The notes under the pieces: model-generated
Told to the model about the DNA's origin: nothing
The model's database searches: none
What the model saw: the letters and a program-made list of their open reading frames with translations, nothing else
Translations under genes and position numbers: made by a program
Assembly: GCA_015686845.1 (NCBI GenBank)
Contig: JADPRS010000029.1
Coordinates: forward strand, 1 to 44,145
Length of the DNA: 44,145 bases
Reading direction: 5' to 3'
DNA from: Lutibacter sp. B2
GTDB taxonomy: Bacteria > Bacillota > Clostridia > Peptostreptococcales > Thermotaleaceae
Part shown: piece after piece, positions 5,816 to 40,808 of the stretch
How positions within the stretch are numbered: position 1 is the first letter of the stretch
How the letters are laid out: every line of letters begins with the position of its first letter

Positions 5816-7159
5816 TTATTCTCTTTTTAAAATTTTTGAAACTTCATTGTCCTCTATTATTTCTTCAATACGGCTAATTCCAAATTGTTTAAGTATTTTC
5901 ATTACATTTATATTATCAAAGGGCGTCATTATAAGGGAATCCTCTCCAAAGTCATTTACTAAGCGAGTGGCTTTTTCCACATCAATATTTGTTTTTGGTC
6001 CTCCTACACAACCACCTAAACATCCCATTCCTTCGACAAAATTATAATCTACATTTTTCTTGATAGATAATTCATCTAGGAATTGTTTACATTTTTTTAC
6101 GCCATCAATCTTCTTGGATTTAAGTTTTATTACTCTTTTTGGTTCTAATCTATTTACTACTGTTTTTACCGAAAAGCTTACGCCTCCAGTTCTTGCATAT
6201 AATCTTCCTCCAAAGGATGCTTGATCTTTTTCATCACTAGGCAAATCTTTTAAATTTATTTCTAGCGTATCAAATATTTCTTTTAACTCCCTATATGTTA
6301 CTACAAAATCTATATCTCCTTTTAAAGCTGGGTCTTTTGCTTCAGCTTTTTTCGCTACACATGGACTTATGAAAACAACCTTTGCATTCCCATAGAGTCT
6401 TTTTAAAAATCTACCTGATGCGATCATAGGAGAAATAGATGGAGGCATATGCTCAAAAAGGGTAGGATAATTTTTCTTCACTAGATTAAACCATACAGGG
6501 CAGCAACAACTAGTTAAATGAAAATCTTCTTTGCTTTTTACTAAATGAATGAATTCAAAGGCCTCTTTAATAGTTAATATATCTGCAAACATAGCCACTT
6601 CAACCATATCTTTAAAACCTATACTCTTTAGAGCAGTTCGAATTTGCCCCATAGTTACATTTTCTCCGAATTGGCCTACTATAGATGGTGCAACGGCAGC
6701 ATAAACGGTCGTATTTTTATCCTTTAGAAAATCGATTAATGGAATAAATTCTATTTTATCTACTAAAGAGCCAAAATCACAGTTAGTAACACACTCACCG
6801 CAACTTAAGCACGTATTATTGTCTATTATTGGTCCTTTGCCCCTGTTGTAAATATGAGCTTCATATTTGCAAGAATCTATACATTTATCATCTTCACAAT
6901 ACTCACATGGACCTTCTATTTTTGCAACGATAGGTTCCTTGATTTCTTTGGAATTTTTTATTATATTTATTTCATCTTCAAACTCATGCCCACTAGGATC
7001 TAATCCCATAGCGACTCTAATATGATCCTGAATAAATGGAATATCTTTGTCTTTAAAATTATATTTTTCTTTTATTTCTTGTGTTAATTTATTTAAATCT
7101 TCATTGTCTTTTAATTCTTCATCCCAGTACTTCTTTACTATTTCAGCAAAAATTTTCAT
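5816..7159 (-). CDS. [FeFe]-hydrogenase-like protein with two [4Fe-4S] clusters, possibly sensory type
   Basis: The 447 residues hold an N-terminal ferredoxin-like part with two Cys sets (85, 88, 93, 97 and 117, 120, 123, 127) and then an H-cluster domain. The three H-cluster motifs are present but not in the classical form: L1 is TSCCCPVW (216-223) rather than TSCCPGW, L2 is SPCVAKK (265-271), and L3 is EGMGCLGGCVGG with Cys 380 and 384. All four expected cluster Cys are kept. Classical members make or oxidise H2. The compact form and altered motifs recall the poorly characterised group C/D enzymes, some proposed as H2 or redox sensors. It is monocistronic, with no maturase or electron-partner gene nearby. 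Family membership is firm; activity is inference. Confidence 0.85.
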   Translation of the reverse strand: MKIFAEIVKKYWDEELKDNEDLNKLTQEIKEKYNFKDKDIPFIQDHIRVAMGLDPSGHEFEDEINIIKNSKEIKEPIVAKIEGPCEYCEDDKCIDSCKYEAHIYNRGKGPIIDNNTCLSCGECVTNCDFGSLVDKIEFIPLIDFLKDKNTTVYAAVAPSIVGQFGENVTMGQIRTALKSIGFKDMVEVAMFADILTIKEAFEFIHLVKSKEDFHLTSCCCPVWFNLVKKNYPTLFEHMPPSISPMIASGRFLKRLYGNAKVVFISPCVAKKAEAKDPALKGDIDFVVTYRELKEIFDTLEINLKDLPSDEKDQASFGGRLYARTGGVSFSVKTVVNRLEPKRVIKLKSKKIDGVKKCKQFLDELSIKKNVDYNFVEGMGCLGGCVGGPKTNIDVEKATRLVNDFGEDSLIMTPFDNINVMKILKQFGISRIEEIIEDNEVSKILKRE

Positions 7160-7310
7160 TCTTTTTTCTTGAAAGTGTTTAAATCTAGTATCTATAATAA
7201 TTCATCCTTCCTTTTTTATCATTAGGCAATCAATAAATGCTCTATTAATTTTTATACATATAATATATTACCCAAATTCAAGGGGTTTATTCAAACTAGG
7301 AATAGTAAGA

Positions 7311-7360
7311 TATGATTTTTAAATCAAAGAGTTAAAGGAAGTTTTCTGATTTAAATCATA
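7311..7360. repeat. Inverted repeat upstream of the cupin gene
   Basis: TATGATTTTTAAATCA (7311-7326) and TGATTTAAATCATA (7347-7360) are inverted copies with a two-base bulge, separated by 20 nt. They lie 55 nt before the cupin start and could be a regulator site or a leader hairpin. No terminator T-run follows. Confidence 0.4.
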
Positions 7361-7414
7361 TTTAATGGGTAAAATAAAGTATCATAATACAAATGAGCGT
7401 TAGGAGGAAAACAT

Positions 7415-7759
7415 ATGGATAAACATTTTATAAAAAATATTGATTTTTCAAAAGTCATAGAAATGGATTCCCTTGTAGAATATCAAGAGGGAAGAGTCGT
7501 TAGTAGAACATTAGCACAAGGAAAACCACTAAGTGTAACTCTATTTGCATTTGATCAAGGAGAAGAGATTAGTTCACATTCTGCAAGTGGAGATGCTATG
7601 GTTTATATACTTGATGGTGAGGCAGAAGTTACAATAGGAGAAGAGAAATTTACTGTGAAAAAGGGTGAAACCATTGTTATGCCCGCACATATTCCTCATG
7701 CACTTTTAGCAAAAGAAAGATTTAAGATGCTTTTGACTGTTGTATTTAGTCTTTCTTGA
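7415..7759 (+). CDS. Small single-domain cupin protein
   Basis: This 114-residue protein has one conserved cupin barrel. The first motif is degenerate, SSHSASGDAMVYILDGEAEVTIG, and the second is KKGETIVMPAHIPHAL. Candidate metal ligands are the His of SSHS and of PAHIPHAL, but the usual second His of motif 1 (HxH) is not clear. Small cupins of this kind bind a metal or a small ligand; the substrate is not predictable. ATG 7415 is preceded by TAGGAGGAAAACAT, a good ribosome site. It is a single-gene unit bounded by a divergent hydrogenase-like gene and a terminator. Confidence 0.85.
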   Translation: MDKHFIKNIDFSKVIEMDSLVEYQEGRVVSRTLAQGKPLSVTLFAFDQGEEISSHSASGDAMVYILDGEAEVTIGEEKFTVKKGETIVMPAHIPHALLAKERFKMLLTVVFSLS

Positions 7760-29613: not shown

Positions 29614-30408
29614 ATGCAAATAAAAAAAGAAAAACCACAAGAAGGAACAAATATTAAAAAGATTGTTGCTATTATGAGTGGAAAAGGAGGCGTAGGAAAG
29701 TCTTCAGTTACTTCTTTAATTGCAGTATCTTTACAGAATAAAGGATATAAGGTTGGAATATTAGATGCTGATATTACAGGTCCAAGTATTCCGAAAGTAT
29801 TTGGATTAGGTGGAAAAAGAGCTATTTCAATTGAAGAAGTCATTCAACCAGTAGAAACAGTAACGGGTATAAAAGTAATGTCTATTAATTTAATGATAGG
29901 GAAAGAAGATGATCCTGTAATATGGAGAGGACCATTGATCGCATCTATCGTAAAACAATTTTATACAGATGTAGCTTGGGGAGAGCTAGACTATCTTTTA
30001 ATTGATTTACCACCAGGAACTGGAGATGTTCCTTTAACAATTATGCAATCATTACCAGTTGATGGTATTGTAGTTGTTTCTTCTCCTCAAGATTTGGTAC
30101 AATTAATAGTGAAAAAATCTGTAAATATGGCCAAGATGATGAGTATTCCTATTTATGGGCTTGTAGAAAACATGAGTTATTTTGAGTGTCCAGATTGTAA
30201 CAAGAAACATTACATATTTGGAAATAGTAATATAGAAGAGACTGCAAAAAATATGAATATTGATGTATTAGAAAAGCTTCCTATTAATCCTGATTTTGTA
30301 ACTTTATGTGATGAGGGAAGAGTAGAGGTATTTGGTAAAACATATTTTGGATTATGTGAAAGTCTTGCTAAAAAAGTAGAAGAAAAAATAGGAGGAATTG
30401 AAAAATGA
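29614..30408 (+). CDS. Mrp/NBP35-family iron-sulfur cluster carrier ATPase
   Basis: This 264-residue P-loop protein is of the ParA/MinD class. It has the deviant Walker A SGKGGVGKSS, DADITGPSIPKVFG and LIDLPPGTGDVPLT. A CPDC pair near residue 193 can bridge a [4Fe-4S] cluster between two subunits, as in ApbC/NBP35 proteins that deliver clusters to target enzymes. It opens a cluster of metal-related genes, and ATG 29614 follows GGGAGG. The next gene overlaps by ATGA. It is divergent from the hpd operon, which needs many clusters, but a functional link is inference. Confidence 0.92.
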   Translation: MQIKKEKPQEGTNIKKIVAIMSGKGGVGKSSVTSLIAVSLQNKGYKVGILDADITGPSIPKVFGLGGKRAISIEEVIQPVETVTGIKVMSINLMIGKEDDPVIWRGPLIASIVKQFYTDVAWGELDYLLIDLPPGTGDVPLTIMQSLPVDGIVVVSSPQDLVQLIVKKSVNMAKMMSIPIYGLVENMSYFECPDCNKKHYIFGNSNIEETAKNMNIDVLEKLPINPDFVTLCDEGRVEVFGKTYFGLCESLAKKVEEKIGGIEK

Positions 30409-30785
30409 AAATAGCTATTACAAGTGTTACAAAGGATAAAGAATCAGTAATTGATGAAAGATTTGGAAGATGTAATTATTTTGCAATTTATGATACAGAA
30501 AGCAAATCTTTTGAGCATGTTGAAAATAAAGGAGTGACTTCTTCACAAGGAGCTGGAATTGCTGCAGGACAACAATTACTTGACTGTGGAGTAGAGGCGG
30601 TTATTACAGGATATGTAGGTCCTAATGCCATAAGAGTATTACAAGGTGGGAATGTAGCTATTCACAAATTCACTGGAAAAAGTATTCAAGAAGAAATAAA
30701 TTTATTTTTAGACAATAAATTAGAAAAAATTAATGAAGCAGGTCCTGCTCATGCTGGAATGCAAAACAGAAATGGAAGGGCATAA
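30405..30785 (+). CDS. NifX/NifB-associated (dinitrogenase cofactor) domain protein 1
   Basis: The 126-residue protein begins MKIAITSVTKDKESVIDERFGRCNYFAIYD, the Nitro_FeMo-Co fold. In nitrogenase systems that fold (NifX, NafY, the NifB C-terminus) binds iron-molybdenum cofactor precursors. No nitrogenase genes are present here. It overlaps the end of mrp by four bases and is followed by two ferredoxin-ATPases. In other anaerobes such genes accompany Mrp and MinD-like ATPases with unknown purpose. A short tail (HAGMQNRNGRA) follows the domain. Confidence 0.85.
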   Translation: MKIAITSVTKDKESVIDERFGRCNYFAIYDTESKSFEHVENKGVTSSQGAGIAAGQQLLDCGVEAVITGYVGPNAIRVLQGGNVAIHKFTGKSIQEEINLFLDNKLEKINEAGPAHAGMQNRNGRA

Positions 30786-30786
30786 T

Positions 30787-31623
30787 ATGCAAATTGCAGT
30801 TTTAAGTGGAAAGGGTGGAACAGGAAAAACCACCGTTTCTACGAATTTAGCGAAAGCAATGGGATGGCAATATGTAGATTGTGATGTAGAAGAACCCAAT
30901 GGATTTATATTTTTAAATCCAAAGATTACAAAAACTGAAAAAGCCAGTATACCTGTTCCTAAAATTGATCCGATCAAGTGCGTAGGATGTCAAAAATGTG
31001 TAAAAATATGTCAGTTTAATGCCTTGGCATGGGTAAATAGAGACGTATTATTTTTTGATAAATTATGCCATGGATGTGGAGCTTGTAGCTTAGTTTGCAG
31101 ATATAATGCTATTTCTGAAGTGGATAGAGAAATTGGAAATATTGATGTAGGTAATGATGGCGAAATAGCATGTTTGAGAGGAACCTTAGATATAGGAGAA
31201 CCCATGGCTGTACCAATTATTCGTAATTTAAAGAAAATGATAGGAAATGAAAATACAATCATAGATTGTTCTCCAGGGAGTTCATGTACGGTAGTAGCTT
31301 CTATAGAAGGTGTAGATTACGCACTTTTAGTAACAGAACCTACGGCATTTGGACTTCATGATTTAAAAATTGCAATAGAACTTGTAAGAAATATGAATAT
31401 TCCCTTTGGAATTATCATAAATAGAGCAAGTGATGAAAAAGATTTAATAGAAGAATATTGTGAAAAAGAAAAAATAAATGTATTAGAAAAGATAAAGTTT
31501 GATAAAGATATTGCAGTTTTGTATTCAAAGGGTAGGATGCTTGTAGAACATGATAAATATAAAGATTTATTTTTAAACATAGGGAAAAGAATTGAGGAGG
31601 AAGTATCATGCAACTTGTTGTAA
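30787..31623 (+). CDS. MinD-like ATPase with inserted two-[4Fe-4S] ferredoxin domain 1
   Basis: The 278-residue protein has the P-loop SGKGGTGKTT at residues 7-16. A ferredoxin insert at about 62-105 carries CVGCQKCVKICQFNA and CHGCGACSLVCRYNA. IIDCSPGSSCTVVASI and the MinD-type ending follow. The start is ATG 30787, one base after the preceding stop, with GGAAGGG as ribosome site. It belongs to the CooC/Mrp-like P-loop family with fused ferredoxin, found in pairs in many strict anaerobes. Its partner is the similar gene just downstream. The role is probably ATP-driven handling of a metal cluster; the target is unknown. Confidence 0.88.
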   Translation: MQIAVLSGKGGTGKTTVSTNLAKAMGWQYVDCDVEEPNGFIFLNPKITKTEKASIPVPKIDPIKCVGCQKCVKICQFNALAWVNRDVLFFDKLCHGCGACSLVCRYNAISEVDREIGNIDVGNDGEIACLRGTLDIGEPMAVPIIRNLKKMIGNENTIIDCSPGSSCTVVASIEGVDYALLVTEPTAFGLHDLKIAIELVRNMNIPFGIIINRASDEKDLIEEYCEKEKINVLEKIKFDKDIAVLYSKGRMLVEHDKYKDLFLNIGKRIEEEVSCNLL

Positions 31624-32468
31624 TAAGTGGAAAAGGTGGTACTGGAAAAACGACTGTTACAGCTTCCTTTGCATACTTAAATAAAGAAAGTATAAAAGTT
31701 GATTGTGATGTAGATGCCTCTAATCTTAATATTGTTCTACAAGGAGAGGATATAGAATCTTCTCAATTTATTGGGGCAAAGATGGCTAAGATTAATAAAG
31801 GTAAATGCATAAAGTGTGGAAGATGTGCTTCTGTATGTAGATTTGATGCAATAAAAGACAATCAAATTATAGAACTTAAATGTGAAGGATGTGCAGCATG
31901 CAAAGTAGTTTGTCCAGTGGATGCTATTTCTTTAGATGATGAAGTTACAGGCGAAACAATCATTACTAAGACAGATGCAGGTATATTATCTAGAGCTGAG
32001 ATGATTGTTGGCGCTGAAGGGTCAGGAAAACTAGTTACAGAGGTTAGAAAAAATGCAATGAAGTATCAAAAAGATAATGAGTTGGTGATTCTTGATGGTA
32101 CACCAGGAATTGGGTGTGCCGTTATGGCATCCATTACTGGATGCGATGTTGCTTTAATCGTAATAGAGCCTACTCAATCGGGACTAAATGATTTTAAGAG
32201 AGTACTTTCTTTGATTGATCATTTTGGTGTAACGCCTCTTGCCTGTATTAATAAATATGACATTAATGAAGAGATGACTTTAGAAATTGAAAAATATTGT
32301 GAAGATGAATCTGTTGAGGTTTTAGGTAGGATTCCATTTGATCCTATGGTTCAAATAGCTGTTAATGAATTAAAACCTATTATCTGTTATGAGAAAAGCA
32401 TTGCTGGAGAAGCAATTAAAAATATTTGGGAAAAAATAAATAAAAAATATAAGGAGGAAATAGTATGA
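31608..32468 (+). CDS. MinD-like ATPase with inserted two-[4Fe-4S] ferredoxin domain 2
   Basis: This is a paralogue of the previous protein (286 residues). The P-loop SGKGGTGKTT is at 7-16, and the ferredoxin insert has CIKCGRCASVCRFDA and CEGCAACKVVCPVDA. LDGTPGIGCAVMASITG corresponds to the partner's DCSPGSSC stretch. It overlaps the upstream gene by 16 nt and has GGAGG just inside that gene, so the two are made in step and may form a heterodimer. The next gene, NifX-like, overlaps its stop by ATGA-type spacing. Confidence 0.88.
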   Translation: MQLVVISGKGGTGKTTVTASFAYLNKESIKVDCDVDASNLNIVLQGEDIESSQFIGAKMAKINKGKCIKCGRCASVCRFDAIKDNQIIELKCEGCAACKVVCPVDAISLDDEVTGETIITKTDAGILSRAEMIVGAEGSGKLVTEVRKNAMKYQKDNELVILDGTPGIGCAVMASITGCDVALIVIEPTQSGLNDFKRVLSLIDHFGVTPLACINKYDINEEMTLEIEKYCEDESVEVLGRIPFDPMVQIAVNELKPIICYEKSIAGEAIKNIWEKINKKYKEEIV

Positions 32469-32821
32469 AAATAGCAATTGCAAAGGATGGAAATGTGGTA
32501 TCAGGTCATTTTGGACACTGTGAGGGATTTGAAGTATTTAATGTAGAAGGAAAAGAAATCAAAGGAAGAGAATTTTTACAAAACCCAGGACATAAACCAG
32601 GATTTTTACCAAAATATATAGCTGAAAAGGGAATCGATATTATTATTGCTGGCGGAATGGGTGGTACAGCACAAGAGCTTTTTAAAGAAAATGGTGTTGA
32701 TGTAGTTGTTGGAGCATCTGGAAATTTAGAAGATGTAATGAATCAGTATTTAAATAAAGAGCTTACATCAACAGGTAGTGTATGTCAAGATCATGCACAT
32801 GAAGGACATTGTAACGATTAA
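32465..32821 (+). CDS. NifX/NifB-associated (dinitrogenase cofactor) domain protein 2
   Basis: This second 118-residue Nitro_FeMo-Co domain protein starts MKIAIAKDGNVVSGHFGHCEGFEVF. It has the core IIIAGGMGGTAQELFKENGVDVVVGASGNLEDVM. The C-terminus is His/Cys-rich (SVCQDHAHEGHCND), a plausible metal-binding tail that the first copy lacks. It overlaps the upstream ATPase by four bases and ends the main part of the cluster before a terminator-like hairpin. Confidence 0.87.
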   Translation: MKIAIAKDGNVVSGHFGHCEGFEVFNVEGKEIKGREFLQNPGHKPGFLPKYIAEKGIDIIIAGGMGGTAQELFKENGVDVVVGASGNLEDVMNQYLNKELTSTGSVCQDHAHEGHCND

Positions 32822-34075: not shown

Positions 34076-34399
34076 TTGACATATGAAAAAAGTACGGTAT
34101 ATATGATTGGAACCTCCAGGATCAATAGTAATGATCCCATTACAGCAACCTTTGATTTTTTGTTTGTAGGCATAATAGTAGATAAAGATACTGATATTAT
34201 TGTTGATTTTACATGCAACATGGTAAAAGAGGTTACTTCTAATTTTATTAAATCATTACTTGTAGAATATAACTTTATAGATGAAATAGATGAAATCATA
34301 AATGAGATCAAAACAAGATTTTATGGAATGGCTCAAAAGGCAGTTATTGCAGCTGTAAAGGATGCACGAAATAAGTATATGATGATTAAAAAGGATTGA
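34076..34399 (+). CDS. DUF3870 domain protein
   Basis: This 107-residue protein begins at TTG 34076, 9 nt after GGGAG. It carries the DUF3870 pattern YMIGTSRINSNDPIT, then a VGIIVDKDTDIIVDFTC strand pair, and ends FYGMAQKAVIAAVKDARNKY. The family is small, mostly found in Firmicutes, and no biochemical role is established. It sits between recX and a candidate small RNA. The promoter of that RNA overlaps its last codons. Confidence 0.75.
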   Translation: MTYEKSTVYMIGTSRINSNDPITATFDFLFVGIIVDKDTDIIVDFTCNMVKEVTSNFIKSLLVEYNFIDEIDEIINEIKTRFYGMAQKAVIAAVKDARNKYMMIKKD

Positions 34400-34429: not shown

Positions 34430-34548
34430 GTAATTAAAAATTAAATATAATGTTTTGTTTATTCGTATGTAGATTAGCCTCTATCATACAAAGATAAATA
34501 AGACCCAGTTAACTTTCGAGTTGAGCTGGGTCTTTTGCGTTTTTTTAT
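34430..34548 (+). ncRNA. Candidate intergenic small RNA (about 120 nt) with strong terminator
   Basis: A good promoter ends at 34423. A strong intrinsic terminator ends near 34548: AAGACCCAG (34500-34508) pairs with CTGGGTCTT, an inner AACT-TTCG-AGTT tetraloop tops it, and T6 follows. Between them only a 15-codon frame without a ribosome site occurs. It may be a trans-acting small RNA or the terminated leader of the DUF1445 gene. No known RNA family is recognised. Confidence 0.45.
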
Positions 34549-34678
34549 GGATAAACAACTTGATATAGCAAGGTTGTGATTATATAAACGTCGTTCCGGC
34601 AAGTATGAAGATTGCAAGTCACTCCTTATTATATAATCACAACCTTTTTTAGTTAAAGTATGAAGTTGTTTATCCATA
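34546..34678. repeat. Nested inverted repeat, MITE-like
   Basis: Outer arms TATGGATAAACAACTT (34546-34561) and AAGTTGTTTATCCATA (34663-34678) are perfect. Inner arms of 17 bp (34571-34587 and 34629-34645) are perfect too, leaving a 41-nt loop. If the terminal TA pairs are target duplications, this is a 129-bp miniature element with 14-bp ends, as made by IS630/Tc1-type transposases. It could instead be a leader RNA structure of the downstream operon. Confidence 0.6.
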
Positions 34679-34708
34679 GTAAAATTTTTAAATGAGGGAG
34701 GAATAGAA

Positions 34709-35500
34709 ATGAAAGATTTATCTTATGCAAGTCCTTATGAAGTTAGAAAATTAATAAGAAACGGGGAAATACAAAAACCTACAGCTGGTATGTGTAGAGG
34801 ATATGCACAGGGGAATTTGGTGATTTTACCTGAAAATTTAGCTTATGACTTTCTTTTATTTACCCAAAGAAATCCAAAACCTTGTCCAGTACTAGAAGTT
34901 ACAGATGTAGGGTGTAAGGAATTTAAAAATATTGCCCCAGGTTCAGATATAACTACGGATCTACCTAAATATAGAGTATATAAAAAAGGAGAACTTCAAG
35001 GCGAATACACAGATATAAAATCATTTTGGAGAGATGACTTTGTTTCATTTATGTTAGGGTGTAGTTTTACATTTGAATCTGCTTTAATGGAAGCTGGAAT
35101 GAATATAAGACATATAGAGTGTAACAGCAATGTACCTATGTATATTACAAATAGAGAATGTAAAAAAGCAGGCATATTTACAGGACCAACGGTAGTAAGT
35201 ATGAGACCTTTACCAATGGATCAAGTTGTTAAAGCTGTACAGATCACATCTCGATTTCCAGGCGTCCATGGCGCACCTATACATATTGGAAATCCTGAGC
35301 ATATAGGGATCAAAGATATATATAAGCCCGATTTTGGAGATGCAGTAGAGATCAAAGAAAATGAAGTTCCTGTATTTTGGGCATGTGGCGTTACACCTCA
35401 AGCTGTTGCTATGAAAGTAAAGCCCGAAATAATGATTACCCATGCGCCAGGCCATATGTTTATTGCAGATATAAAAAATCAAGATTTAGCTATTTTCTAA
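34709..35500 (+). CDS. DUF1445 family putative hydro-lyase (D-glutamate cyclase N-terminal part)
   Basis: The 263-residue protein belongs to the DUF1445/YcsI (UPF0317) family, of usual length. Conserved stretches include GMCRGYAQGNLVILP, DLPKYRVYKKG, FWRDDFVSFMLGCSFTFE, RHIECNSNVPMYITNREC and CGVTPQAVAM, which ends with ITHAPGHMFIADI. In animals the mitochondrial D-glutamate cyclase DGLUCY contains such a domain followed by a DUF4392 domain, and the next gene here is DUF4392. The pair probably acts on D-glutamate, 5-oxo-D-proline or a related acid. GGAGG precedes ATG 34709. Confidence 0.85.
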   Translation: MKDLSYASPYEVRKLIRNGEIQKPTAGMCRGYAQGNLVILPENLAYDFLLFTQRNPKPCPVLEVTDVGCKEFKNIAPGSDITTDLPKYRVYKKGELQGEYTDIKSFWRDDFVSFMLGCSFTFESALMEAGMNIRHIECNSNVPMYITNRECKKAGIFTGPTVVSMRPLPMDQVVKAVQITSRFPGVHGAPIHIGNPEHIGIKDIYKPDFGDAVEIKENEVPVFWACGVTPQAVAMKVKPEIMITHAPGHMFIADIKNQDLAIF

Positions 35501-35514
35501 AAGGAGTTGATCAT

Positions 35515-36408
35515 ATGAATAAAAAATATTTTGAGCAAATAGATAGAGTGATCAGAAAAAATTTAGAACAAAGAGGAATGGATAAGGTTAGACTTGTGGG
35601 AGAACTTGAAAGAGCATCGAGAAGTCTTTTTGAAAGTGAAACTGTTTTTATTGTCACAGGATTTTGTATAAGAGATACCCTTACAGGTGAAACAGATGGG
35701 CCTATAGGAGCCATATCTTTAGCGAGTGGATTAGAACAATTAGGGAAAAAAGTAGTAATTATAACAGATGAATATTCTAGAGAAATGTTGTTTAATTGCA
35801 AGATGGTAAAAGGTGTTAAAGGGCCGATAGAAGTTGTTCCACATAAGGCCGCAGAATATTTTTGCAACCATCTTATAAACAATTATAAACCATCTCATAT
35901 TGTGGGGGTAGAAAGACCTGGAAGAGCAAATGATGGCTGTTGCTATTCAATGAGGGGCGAAAATCTTAGTGATATCGTCCCAAATACAGATATATTATTT
36001 GAAAAAGCAAAGGAACTTTGTATAAGGACAATTGCTGTTGGTGATGGAGGAAATGAAGTTGGAATGGGAAAAGTTTCATCACTCGTAATGAATTGTGTAA
36101 ATAAAGGAGAAAAAATATGTGCAGCTATTAGTTCTGATTATTTGATTGTAGCAGGTGTATCAAATTGGGGTGGGCATGCTTTAGTTGCAGGGCTTTCATT
36201 ACTTAGTGATAAAATATTACTACATGATCGTAAAACAGAGATACAATTACTCAAAAGTATGCTAGAGGCAGGAGCTGTAGATGGATGTACGAAGAAGAGT
36301 ACTATGACTGTGGATGGATTAAGTTTAGAAGAGAATCTTGAAATTCTTGAAAGCTTACGAAAAATAGTAAAAGGAAGAATGCGGAAAGATTGTGTAATGG
36401 CTGGATAA
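35515..36408 (+). CDS. DUF4392 protein (D-glutamate cyclase C-terminal-like)
   Basis: The 297-residue protein matches DUF4392. Visible conserved pieces are TVFIVTGFCI, ETDGPIGAISLASGL, HIVGVERPGRANDGCCYSMRG, AVGDGGNEVGMGKV and ISSDYLIVAGVSNWGGHALVAG, with KKSTMTVDGL near the end. In the human enzyme DGLUCY this domain follows a DUF1445 domain and the protein turns D-glutamate into 5-oxo-D-proline. Here the two are separate genes 14 nt apart with AAGGAG before ATG 35515. The frame extends upstream inside the DUF1445 gene, but this start is the supported one. Activity is inferred. Confidence 0.85.
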   Translation: MNKKYFEQIDRVIRKNLEQRGMDKVRLVGELERASRSLFESETVFIVTGFCIRDTLTGETDGPIGAISLASGLEQLGKKVVIITDEYSREMLFNCKMVKGVKGPIEVVPHKAAEYFCNHLINNYKPSHIVGVERPGRANDGCCYSMRGENLSDIVPNTDILFEKAKELCIRTIAVGDGGNEVGMGKVSSLVMNCVNKGEKICAAISSDYLIVAGVSNWGGHALVAGLSLLSDKILLHDRKTEIQLLKSMLEAGAVDGCTKKSTMTVDGLSLEENLEILESLRKIVKGRMRKDCVMAG

Positions 36409-40186: not shown

Positions 40187-40334
40187 GATGATAATATTTG
40201 AGTCCCTCAGAGTGTGATATAAACGCCTTAGATTTTTTCACAATAGTCTCTGTGTAATACATTTTAAAAAGAAAAGTGATAACACTATAAATATGTGAAA
40301 GAATGAAATTGTATATGATAAAGAGGTGAGCACA

Positions 40335-40808
40335 GTGGTTAATAAAGAGTACCTGTTGGATACGAATGTAGTTATAAAAATATGGAATGAATATCCTTCC
40401 TTATTTCAAAGTATAGAAAAACATGAGGGCGTTGATTTTAAGATTGATCATCATATAGCTGGAGAATTATCTATAAAAAAATTCCGAGAAATTGATGGAG
40501 TCCCAGTACTTACATATAAATTTGTAAAATTATTAGAGCATATCATTGATGAGGATGTAGTTAAGTTTTTAGAAATTCATAAACCGAATGTTTGTATCAA
40601 ACATGATTCCAATAAATACATCTATTCTATAAATGGTAATAAACTTTCTAGAAATGACTATAAGCTTATTTGTATTTGTGAAAAATATAAACAATATACA
40701 TTGGTTACGCAAGATAAAAAGCTGCTCAATAGTGCAAAAATTATATTAAACCCTTCTAGGGTATTGACTTTTAATGAATTGCTGTGTGATTTAAAGGATG
40801 ATTTTTAA
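40335..40808 (+). CDS. PIN-domain-like protein (putative ribonuclease)
   Basis: About 157 residues. YLLDTNVVIKIW near the N-terminus carries the first PIN-domain Asp. The last acidic cluster lies in SRNDYKLICICEKYKQYTLVTQDKKLL, with TQD as the final acidic residue. PIN domains cut RNA with metal bound by these acids, and many are toxins of toxin-antitoxin pairs. No antitoxin gene lies next to it in the same direction: upstream is the TRAP ruin and downstream a convergent MFS gene. GTG 40335 has an AGAGG site 8 nt upstream; GTG 40326 touches that site. It may be a stand-alone or cellular PIN protein. Confidence 0.7.
   Translation: MVNKEYLLDTNVVIKIWNEYPSLFQSIEKHEGVDFKIDHHIAGELSIKKFREIDGVPVLTYKFVKLLEHIIDEDVVKFLEIHKPNVCIKHDSNKYIYSINGNKLSRNDYKLICICEKYKQYTLVTQDKKLLNSAKIILNPSRVLTFNELLCDLKDDF

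Follow-up and report, generated by a model that had tools for sequence, protein, structure and literature searches.

The closest described counterpart of the gene pair considered here is the animal D-glutamate cyclase DGLUCY, also named GLUCM (C14orf159; 9030617O03Rik in the mouse). The mouse protein converts D-glutamate to 5-oxo-D-proline, and its knockout accumulates D-glutamate (PMC5339696). Its two domain families are encoded, in the animal order, by two consecutive genes on a 44,145-nucleotide stretch of DNA from Lutibacter sp. B2 (GenBank assembly GCA_015686845.1, contig JADPRS010000029.1, positions 1 to 44,145), the whole of which is called the window below. The first gene belongs to the DUF1445 (UPF0317, PF07286) family of Bacillus subtilis YcsI and corresponds to the N-terminal half of DGLUCY; the second belongs to the DUF4392 (PF14336) family, is similar to TON_0340 of Thermococcus onnurineus and corresponds to the C-terminal half. 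Animal DGLUCY is one polypeptide, whereas the window pair consists of two genes, each with its own ribosome-binding-like sequence. The animal enzyme is known by its activity; in bacteria the two halves come as individual proteins, which would allow each to be studied by itself and in combination with the other. Since the mouse two-domain enzyme makes 5-oxo-D-proline from D-glutamate, we infer the same reaction for the bacterial pair. The reading favoured here, held with confidence a little above even, is that the pair would form a two-subunit or two-step D-glutamate/5-oxo-D-proline enzyme inside a 5-oxoproline module.

The fusion of DUF4392 with DUF1445 in higher animals was noted in 2016 (PMC5132392), and the two-gene form itself is already recorded, split homologs of GLUCM_HUMAN having been tabulated in gut bacteria (nFull 0, nSplit 6; Rendina et al. 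2024, PMC11580864, Table 1). That entry is a table row in which operon partners, metal site, bacterial fusions and the 5-oxoprolinase link are not given; the pathway context and the fusions lend the window pair its added interest. Among the matches listed for the open-licence PMC literature, judged by titles and the starts of abstracts, no link of DUF4392 to 5-oxoprolinase and no bacterial fusion of DUF1445 with DUF4392 was found. The current bacterial labels are 'putative hydro-lyase' for DUF1445 and, for DUF4392, the report of a weak phosphatase (PMC5132392). The UPF0317 proteins PSPTO_5379 (PDB 2pif), Atu3911 (3db9) and B. subtilis YcsI are of the same family as the window DUF1445 protein, and no reported function was found for them in the literature searched. 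B. subtilis ycsI has been described as part of the pxpABC operon together with the Mn2+ importer gene ycsG (PMC10448178). The available text of a paper on 5-oxo-L-proline in Corynebacterium glutamicum (PMC13274462) contains no mention of D-glutamate, 5-oxo-D-proline, ycsI, DUF1445, hydro-lyase or epimerase.

In the window, the DUF1445 gene (34709-35500, forward strand) starts with ATG and encodes 263 amino acids. It is followed, after its stop at 35500 and a spacer of 14 nt, by a fresh ATG at 35515 that opens the DUF4392 gene (35515-36408, forward strand), so that the two domains sit in separate polypeptides; the length of 297 amino acids for the second protein is counted from this ATG, the mechanical open reading frame (ORF) extending up to a TTG at 35377. 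Direct reading of the forward strand gave the purine-rich ribosome-binding-like sequences GGGAGGA (34696-34702) ahead of the first ATG and AAGGAG (35501-35506) within the spacer ahead of the second. The DUF1445 protein matched Pfam PF07286 (D-Glu_cyclase) over residues 112-254 (230 bits, cut-off 25, E 1.1e-68), and the DUF4392 protein covered the entire profile of PF14336 (GLUCM-like_C; 291 bits, cut-off 27.9, E 1.6e-86), these being the single matches to either profile in the window's genome. An earlier sequence-only reading had described the locus as a two-gene form of DGLUCY; its gene order, coordinates and 14-nt spacing were borne out by the ORFs and Pfam, and the profile search that it had called for matched the two proteins to the families of the N- and C-terminal DGLUCY domains. 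The DUF1445 protein also exceeded the cut-off of the NCBIfam model PRK05463 'putative hydro-lyase' (NF003969; 428 vs 324 bits), and the DUF4392 protein matched no NCBIfam model at E up to 1. The Pfam domains of PxpABC (LamB/YcsF, CT_C_D and CT_A_B) were absent from both proteins at E up to 1; judged by sequence, the two are not PxpABC members, PxpABC proteins being rather the neighbours of DUF1445 and DUF4392 in relatives.

The DUF4392 protein aligned with its archaeal homologue TON_0340 (PDB 4fc5, E 2.5e-37; also 5gl4), and all six acids of the metal site are common to both: E59, D61, E115, D157, E161 and D246 of TON_0340 correspond to E59, D61, E133, D177, E181 and D267 of the window protein. 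In TON_0340 the ligands of two Mn2+ are five of these acids, all except E59, whose part is to hold a water molecule bound to the metal (PMC5132392). The six were kept in 42/42 distinct DUF4392 sequences aligned here, and the same report calls them absolutely conserved in an alignment that includes the human sequence, through which, and not through a direct alignment, they are shared between the window protein and animal DGLUCY. Most likely the DUF4392 protein provides a di-Mn2+/Mg2+ active site with these six acids around it. In the bacterial pair it would serve as the metal site for conversion of D-glutamate to 5-oxo-D-proline, and the DUF1445 protein would act as a partner subunit or as the enzyme of a neighbouring step.

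A survey of 398 genomes spread over the phylum, based on family and profile searches for DUF4392, DUF1445 and pxpA, found DUF4392 in 39 genomes, 38 of them scoring over the curated cut-off; DUF1445 was present in 62 and pxpA in 115. These counts keep three genomes with short DUF1445 matches (G049, G062 and G175) and one with a DUF4392 match below the cut-off (G236); they rest on the searches rather than on a simple ORF caller, which missed some overlapping genes (the window DUF1445 gene and pxpA of locus L081). DUF1445 and DUF4392 occurred together in 29 genomes where about 6 were expected (Fisher p 1e-18). In 16 of the 29 they were at most 6 kb apart on one strand, DUF1445 coming first in 15, and these 16 genomes are spread over 8 family codes. 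Counted by family code, 13 of the 19 families holding DUF4392 had both domains together and 8 had them within 6 kb. Chance adjacency of the pair was ruled out with a random-placement p of about 3e-30, from a crude model that takes genomes as independent; as all the tests treat related genomes in this way, the p-values are optimistic. The possibility that the link between the two families is a side effect of pxpA presence was also ruled out, since among pxpA-positive genomes DUF4392 was found in 29/61 with DUF1445 vs 3/54 without it (p 2e-7).

A GTDB scan gave at least 584 confirmed DUF4392 relatives. In the best 80 loci, here called the named set, DUF1445 was found in 33, a pxp gene in 23 and both in 20; for the 46 loci with full flanks the numbers were 24 with DUF1445 and 16 with a pxp gene. 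Where DUF1445 and DUF4392 were separate genes (30 loci), they shared one strand in 30/30 and DUF1445 was first in 24. The named set and the survey genomes overlap by at least five loci.

Natural one-piece forms were also observed. Locus L187 (Clostridiales MAG21) encodes a DUF1445-DUF4392 protein in the animal order, and L183 and L189, from two clostridial metagenome-assembled genomes (MAGs), encode the reverse order, DUF4392-DUF1445. In L220 (Spirochaetales MAG, 5935-7491) DUF4392 is fused to PxpB, with a DUF1445 gene directly before it, and in three further loci (L206 5785-7644, L213 5953-7782 and L219 257-2464) it is fused to a MurD-like Mur-ligase part that scores 149-182 bits against the NCBIfam murD model, below its cut-off of 212. 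A Hydantoinase_B/oxoprolinase reading frame (Pfam) lies directly upstream of the L213 fusion, and a piece similar to it by phmmer precedes the L219 fusion at the contig end. All of the fused loci are from metagenome-assembled genomes by title, the fusions being known from assembled frames and not from reads. Since D-glutamate is joined to the peptidoglycan precursor by the ligase MurD, the MurD-like fusions point independently to D-glutamate, as the PxpB fusion does to 5-oxoproline. Co-occurrence, conserved order and the one-piece fusions together support the proposal of the sequence-only reading that the two parts act together in bacteria.

DUF1445 was also associated with PxpABC, a different, ATP-dependent enzyme that acts as 5-oxoprolinase. 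The gene pxpA was present in 61 of the 62 DUF1445 genomes vs 115/398 overall, and in 48 of the 62 it lay within 6 kb on the same strand. It was also present in 29/29 genomes with both DUF1445 and DUF4392, and in 7 of the 16 adjacent-pair genomes it was within 6 kb of DUF4392 too. Compact operons were found in several arrangements: transaminase-like-pxpA-pxpB-pxpC-DUF1445-DUF4392 in L077, transaminase-like-pxpB-pxpC-DUF1445-pxpA-DUF4392 in L079 and L080, and pxpA-DUF1445-pxpB-pxpC-DUF4392 in L088 and L089. In Aestuariicella albida (L239) the order is DUF1445-pxpA-pxpB-pxpC-DUF4392-LysR-type-D-amino-acid-transaminase-like-alanine racemase, the racemase being above its model cut-off. A transaminase-like class-IV aminotransferase gene was found in 10/80 named loci, each of which also carries pxp genes. 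The near-complete co-occurrence with pxpA and the operons suggest a shared route of D-glutamate/5-oxoproline handling; they point to a concrete pathway and set of substrates, and the tie to this chemistry made in the sequence-only reading gains support from the 5-oxoprolinase genes within or near the same operons.

Of the 16 genomes in the window's taxonomic family, nine had DUF4392 and six had DUF1445, these six all being among the nine and all holding pxpA. DUF1445 adjoins DUF4392 in the window's genome (G000), G001 and G011. In G003 and G007 it is beside an iclR-pxpA-NRAMP-type-pxpB-pxpC gene group, transcribed away from it, with DUF4392 elsewhere; in G009 its neighbour is iclR, close to a contig end that also carries a pxpA fragment, and DUF4392 is again elsewhere. 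Within one family, therefore, DUF1445 sits beside either DUF4392 or the 5-oxoprolinase genes. G001 also contains a short second DUF1445 match with an internal TGA (contig C22, 54767-54865), apparently a remnant.

The window's genome itself encodes pxpA, pxpB and pxpC on another contig, C31, with an NRAMP-type gene and an IclR-type regulator, and no DUF1445 was found in the stretch of C31 examined. The NRAMP-type protein, itself below the NCBIfam cut-offs, is homologous to an L115 protein with a score above the Pfam cut-off for Nramp. The genome has one glutamate racemase and no match to a Hydantoinase_B-type oxoprolinase. It has two class-IV aminotransferases, one nearest to aminodeoxychorismate lyase models and the other unplaced; both are below the model cut-offs, and a D-amino-acid transaminase is not claimed for this genome.

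Several observations weigh against the favoured reading. DUF4392 was missing from 33/62 DUF1445 genomes in the phylum survey and DUF1445 from 10/39 DUF4392 genomes, 7 of these 10 lacking pxpA as well. In the named set 44/80 loci showed neither DUF1445 nor a pxp gene in the stretch examined, and three archaeal loci (L218, L229 and L233) carried DUF4392 with no DUF1445 in the stretch examined; DUF1445 homologues were earlier reported as not found in archaea (PMC5132392). As 54/115 pxpA genomes have no DUF1445, PxpABC can do without it. The pxp genes and the pair are on different contigs in the window's genome, and the class-IV aminotransferases of L077, L079, L085 and L239, which best match D-amino-acid transaminase models, are below the cut-offs. 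The literature searched yielded one activity for a DUF4392 protein on its own, the weak Mn-dependent phosphatase of TON_0340 (PMC5132392), and some members of a divergent DUF4392 clade described below are beside sugar-kinase (FGGY), SelA-like or solute-binding genes. Furthermore, an ATP-driven 5-oxoprolinase next to a cyclase would create a futile cycle, unless the enzymes differ in the enantiomer that they use or in the direction in which they work.

DUF1445 and DUF4392 are linked, yet they are not obligate partners, and one half may therefore function by itself or carry out a step of its own. The sequence-only reading had spoken of a split operon in an anaerobe: the pair is there, but it is neither peculiar to this anaerobe nor obligate. 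Of the 14 control genomes, B. subtilis was the one matching PF07286, and, unlike the window's genome, it matched DUF1445 but not DUF4392. A cyclase and an ATP-consuming 5-oxoprolinase make a sensible pair only when kept apart by stereochemistry or direction, and for this reason a two-step version, with DUF1445 handling 5-oxo-D-proline for PxpABC, is kept open.

An alternative arises at this point, possible but considerably less probable than the favoured reading, in which DUF4392 alone is a metal-dependent D-glutamate cyclase and DUF1445 is a 5-oxoproline racemase or epimerase, or another 5-oxo-D-proline enzyme, feeding PxpABC. The route would run from D-glutamate through 5-oxo-D-proline and 5-oxo-L-proline to L-glutamate, the L-form being handed to PxpABC, which would remove the problem of a futile cycle. 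It would fit the contrast between DUF1445 genomes without pxpA (1/62) and those without DUF4392, the occurrence of DUF4392 without DUF1445, archaeal loci included, and the fusions in both orders and with PxpB, as seen for neighbouring pathway steps. It would also fit the invariant Cys, His, Arg and Glu residues of DUF1445, C59, C118, C226, H187, H245, R134, R166 and E123 being kept in 48/48 aligned sequences. However, no resemblance to a racemase was seen in the fold comparisons, and the full-length mouse enzyme is reported to make 5-oxo-D-proline and normal humans to excrete mainly the D-form (PMC5339696), so that inversion is not seen in mammals.

The fold of the DUF1445 protein bears on this alternative and on a further one. 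Solved relatives (2pif and 3db9) were found by both sequence and fold, and a structure model built from a 29-row alignment (pLDDT 94.7) has the UPF0317 fold, with a VIA Z of 35.9 and an rmsd of 2.1 over 248 residues against 2pif and a Z of 31.6 against 3db9. Outside its own family the sole clear match was 3nek, the NrpR-like protein MJ0159 titled nitrogen repressor-like (Foldseek E 2.1e-6, TM 0.42 and 0.48; VIA Z 9.4, rmsd 4.1 over 167 residues, 9% identity). Besides these three entries nothing in the VIA list was above Z 3.7, although other relatives are still possible. NrpR repression is 2-oxoglutarate-dependent (PMC9765008), and DUF1445 might accordingly be pictured as a non-enzyme ligand-sensing or activating subunit which, on binding a dicarboxylate similar to glutamate, modulates DUF4392 or PxpABC. 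We consider this quite improbable. The match to MJ0159, although well clear of the next entry, is modest and a common fold shows no function, so that the resemblance is at most a hint at the kind of ligand. In addition, the 28 relatives are 49-76% identical to the window protein, and this very high conservation with many invariant reactive residues looks more active-site-like than sensor-like.

Unlike a family of single uniform function, which was rejected, DUF4392 includes a separate clade with partly different neighbour genes. On a tree with 117 rows from bacteria and archaea, of which 24 are unlabelled owing to short flanks and from which five named loci on the same contigs as survey genomes (L162, L164, L167, L180 and L216) were left out, a clade of 16 rows (SH-aLRT 95) was separate from the window protein. 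For 14 of these 16 the stretch examined contained no DUF1445; the other two, L088 and L089, are DUF1445- and pxp-linked. The trait 'linked to DUF1445' required 16 changes on the tree vs a shuffled mean of 31.2; the linkage is clustered but has been repeatedly gained or lost. In L090, DUF4392 adjoins FGGY kinase and SelA-like genes, and genes belonging to these clusters are also present in L102 and L107; in L104 it adjoins a malic-enzyme-like gene and in L092 it is near solute-binding-protein genes, these neighbour clusters resting on the simple ORF caller. Given such neighbours, DUF4392 is not a family with a single fixed substrate, and the function of these divergent proteins (L090, L102, L104, L107 and L092) is probably not related to D-glutamate.

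Such members, together with TON_0340, raise the alternative that the window pair too is not active on D-glutamate, DUF4392 being a small-molecule phosphatase or other metal enzyme that owes the DGLUCY name to a distant homologue in animals. The phosphatase activity of TON_0340 is Mn-dependent and is abolished by mutation of the metal site (PMC5132392). It is also very low, with a kcat/KM of 1.9 x 10^2 per M per s with AMP, and came from a trial of 20 compounds at hand (PMC5132392). The window DUF4392 protein is outside the divergent clade, though the pxp-linked L088 and L089 are inside it, and the 5-oxoprolinase linkage is strong. This alternative is therefore regarded as unlikely, somewhat more so than a racemase role for DUF1445.

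A wider proposal may be offered tentatively, as possible but rather doubtful. DUF1445 and DUF4392 might constitute the missing D-side of bacterial 5-oxoproline metabolism, with the di-Mn site of DUF4392 cyclising D-glutamate, DUF1445 inverting or channelling 5-oxo-D-proline, and PxpABC, or a hydantoinase/oxoprolinase-type enzyme such as those beside DUF4392 in L213 and L219, opening the ring to L-glutamate. The result would be an ATP-driven salvage of D- to L-glutamate. Fusion would have joined its parts in more than one order, and also to PxpB or MurD-like domains, and animals would have inherited a fused form of two of the parts. What the analysis shows directly for the favoured reading is domain identity, the metal-site residues, genomic linkage and natural fusions, while reaction, direction, stereochemistry, any physical complex, division of labour and purpose are inferred.

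Upstream of the pair the window contains a DUF3870 (PF12986) gene of 107 amino acids (34076-34399, forward strand; Pfam E 1.8e-28). According to the simple ORF caller, 7/9 DUF4392-bearing genomes of the window's taxonomic family have a same-strand DUF3870 gene upstream of DUF4392, and the local unit may therefore be DUF3870-DUF1445-DUF4392. The loci listed for this placement are, with the window, L073, L074, L093, L094, L095 and L098, the last with three copies.

Between the DUF3870 and DUF1445 genes there is a long inverted repeat (34540-34684, no strand assigned), palindromic and dispersed in the window's genome. At least 14 places in the genome match it over at least 111 query bases, its own copy included and the other 13 at 83-91% identity; this is a lower bound, 40 of the 62 candidates having been scored. 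In relatives only matches of 22-32 query bases were found. The repeat looks like a palindromic element of the MITE (miniature inverted-repeat transposable element) type and is not part of the enzyme unit. A role as riboswitch or regulator of the pair was unsupported, the repeat being dispersed and the window giving no Rfam match at gathering score.

Two other features of the window were recognised by eye only. Further upstream, an ORF run at 29614-32821 resembles Mrp/NifH-type ATPases and small iron-molybdenum-cofactor-type proteins. Downstream of the pair, an ORF of 160 amino acids at 40326-40808 has a PIN-domain-like start (LLDTNVVIKI) and is possibly the toxin of a toxin-antitoxin pair.

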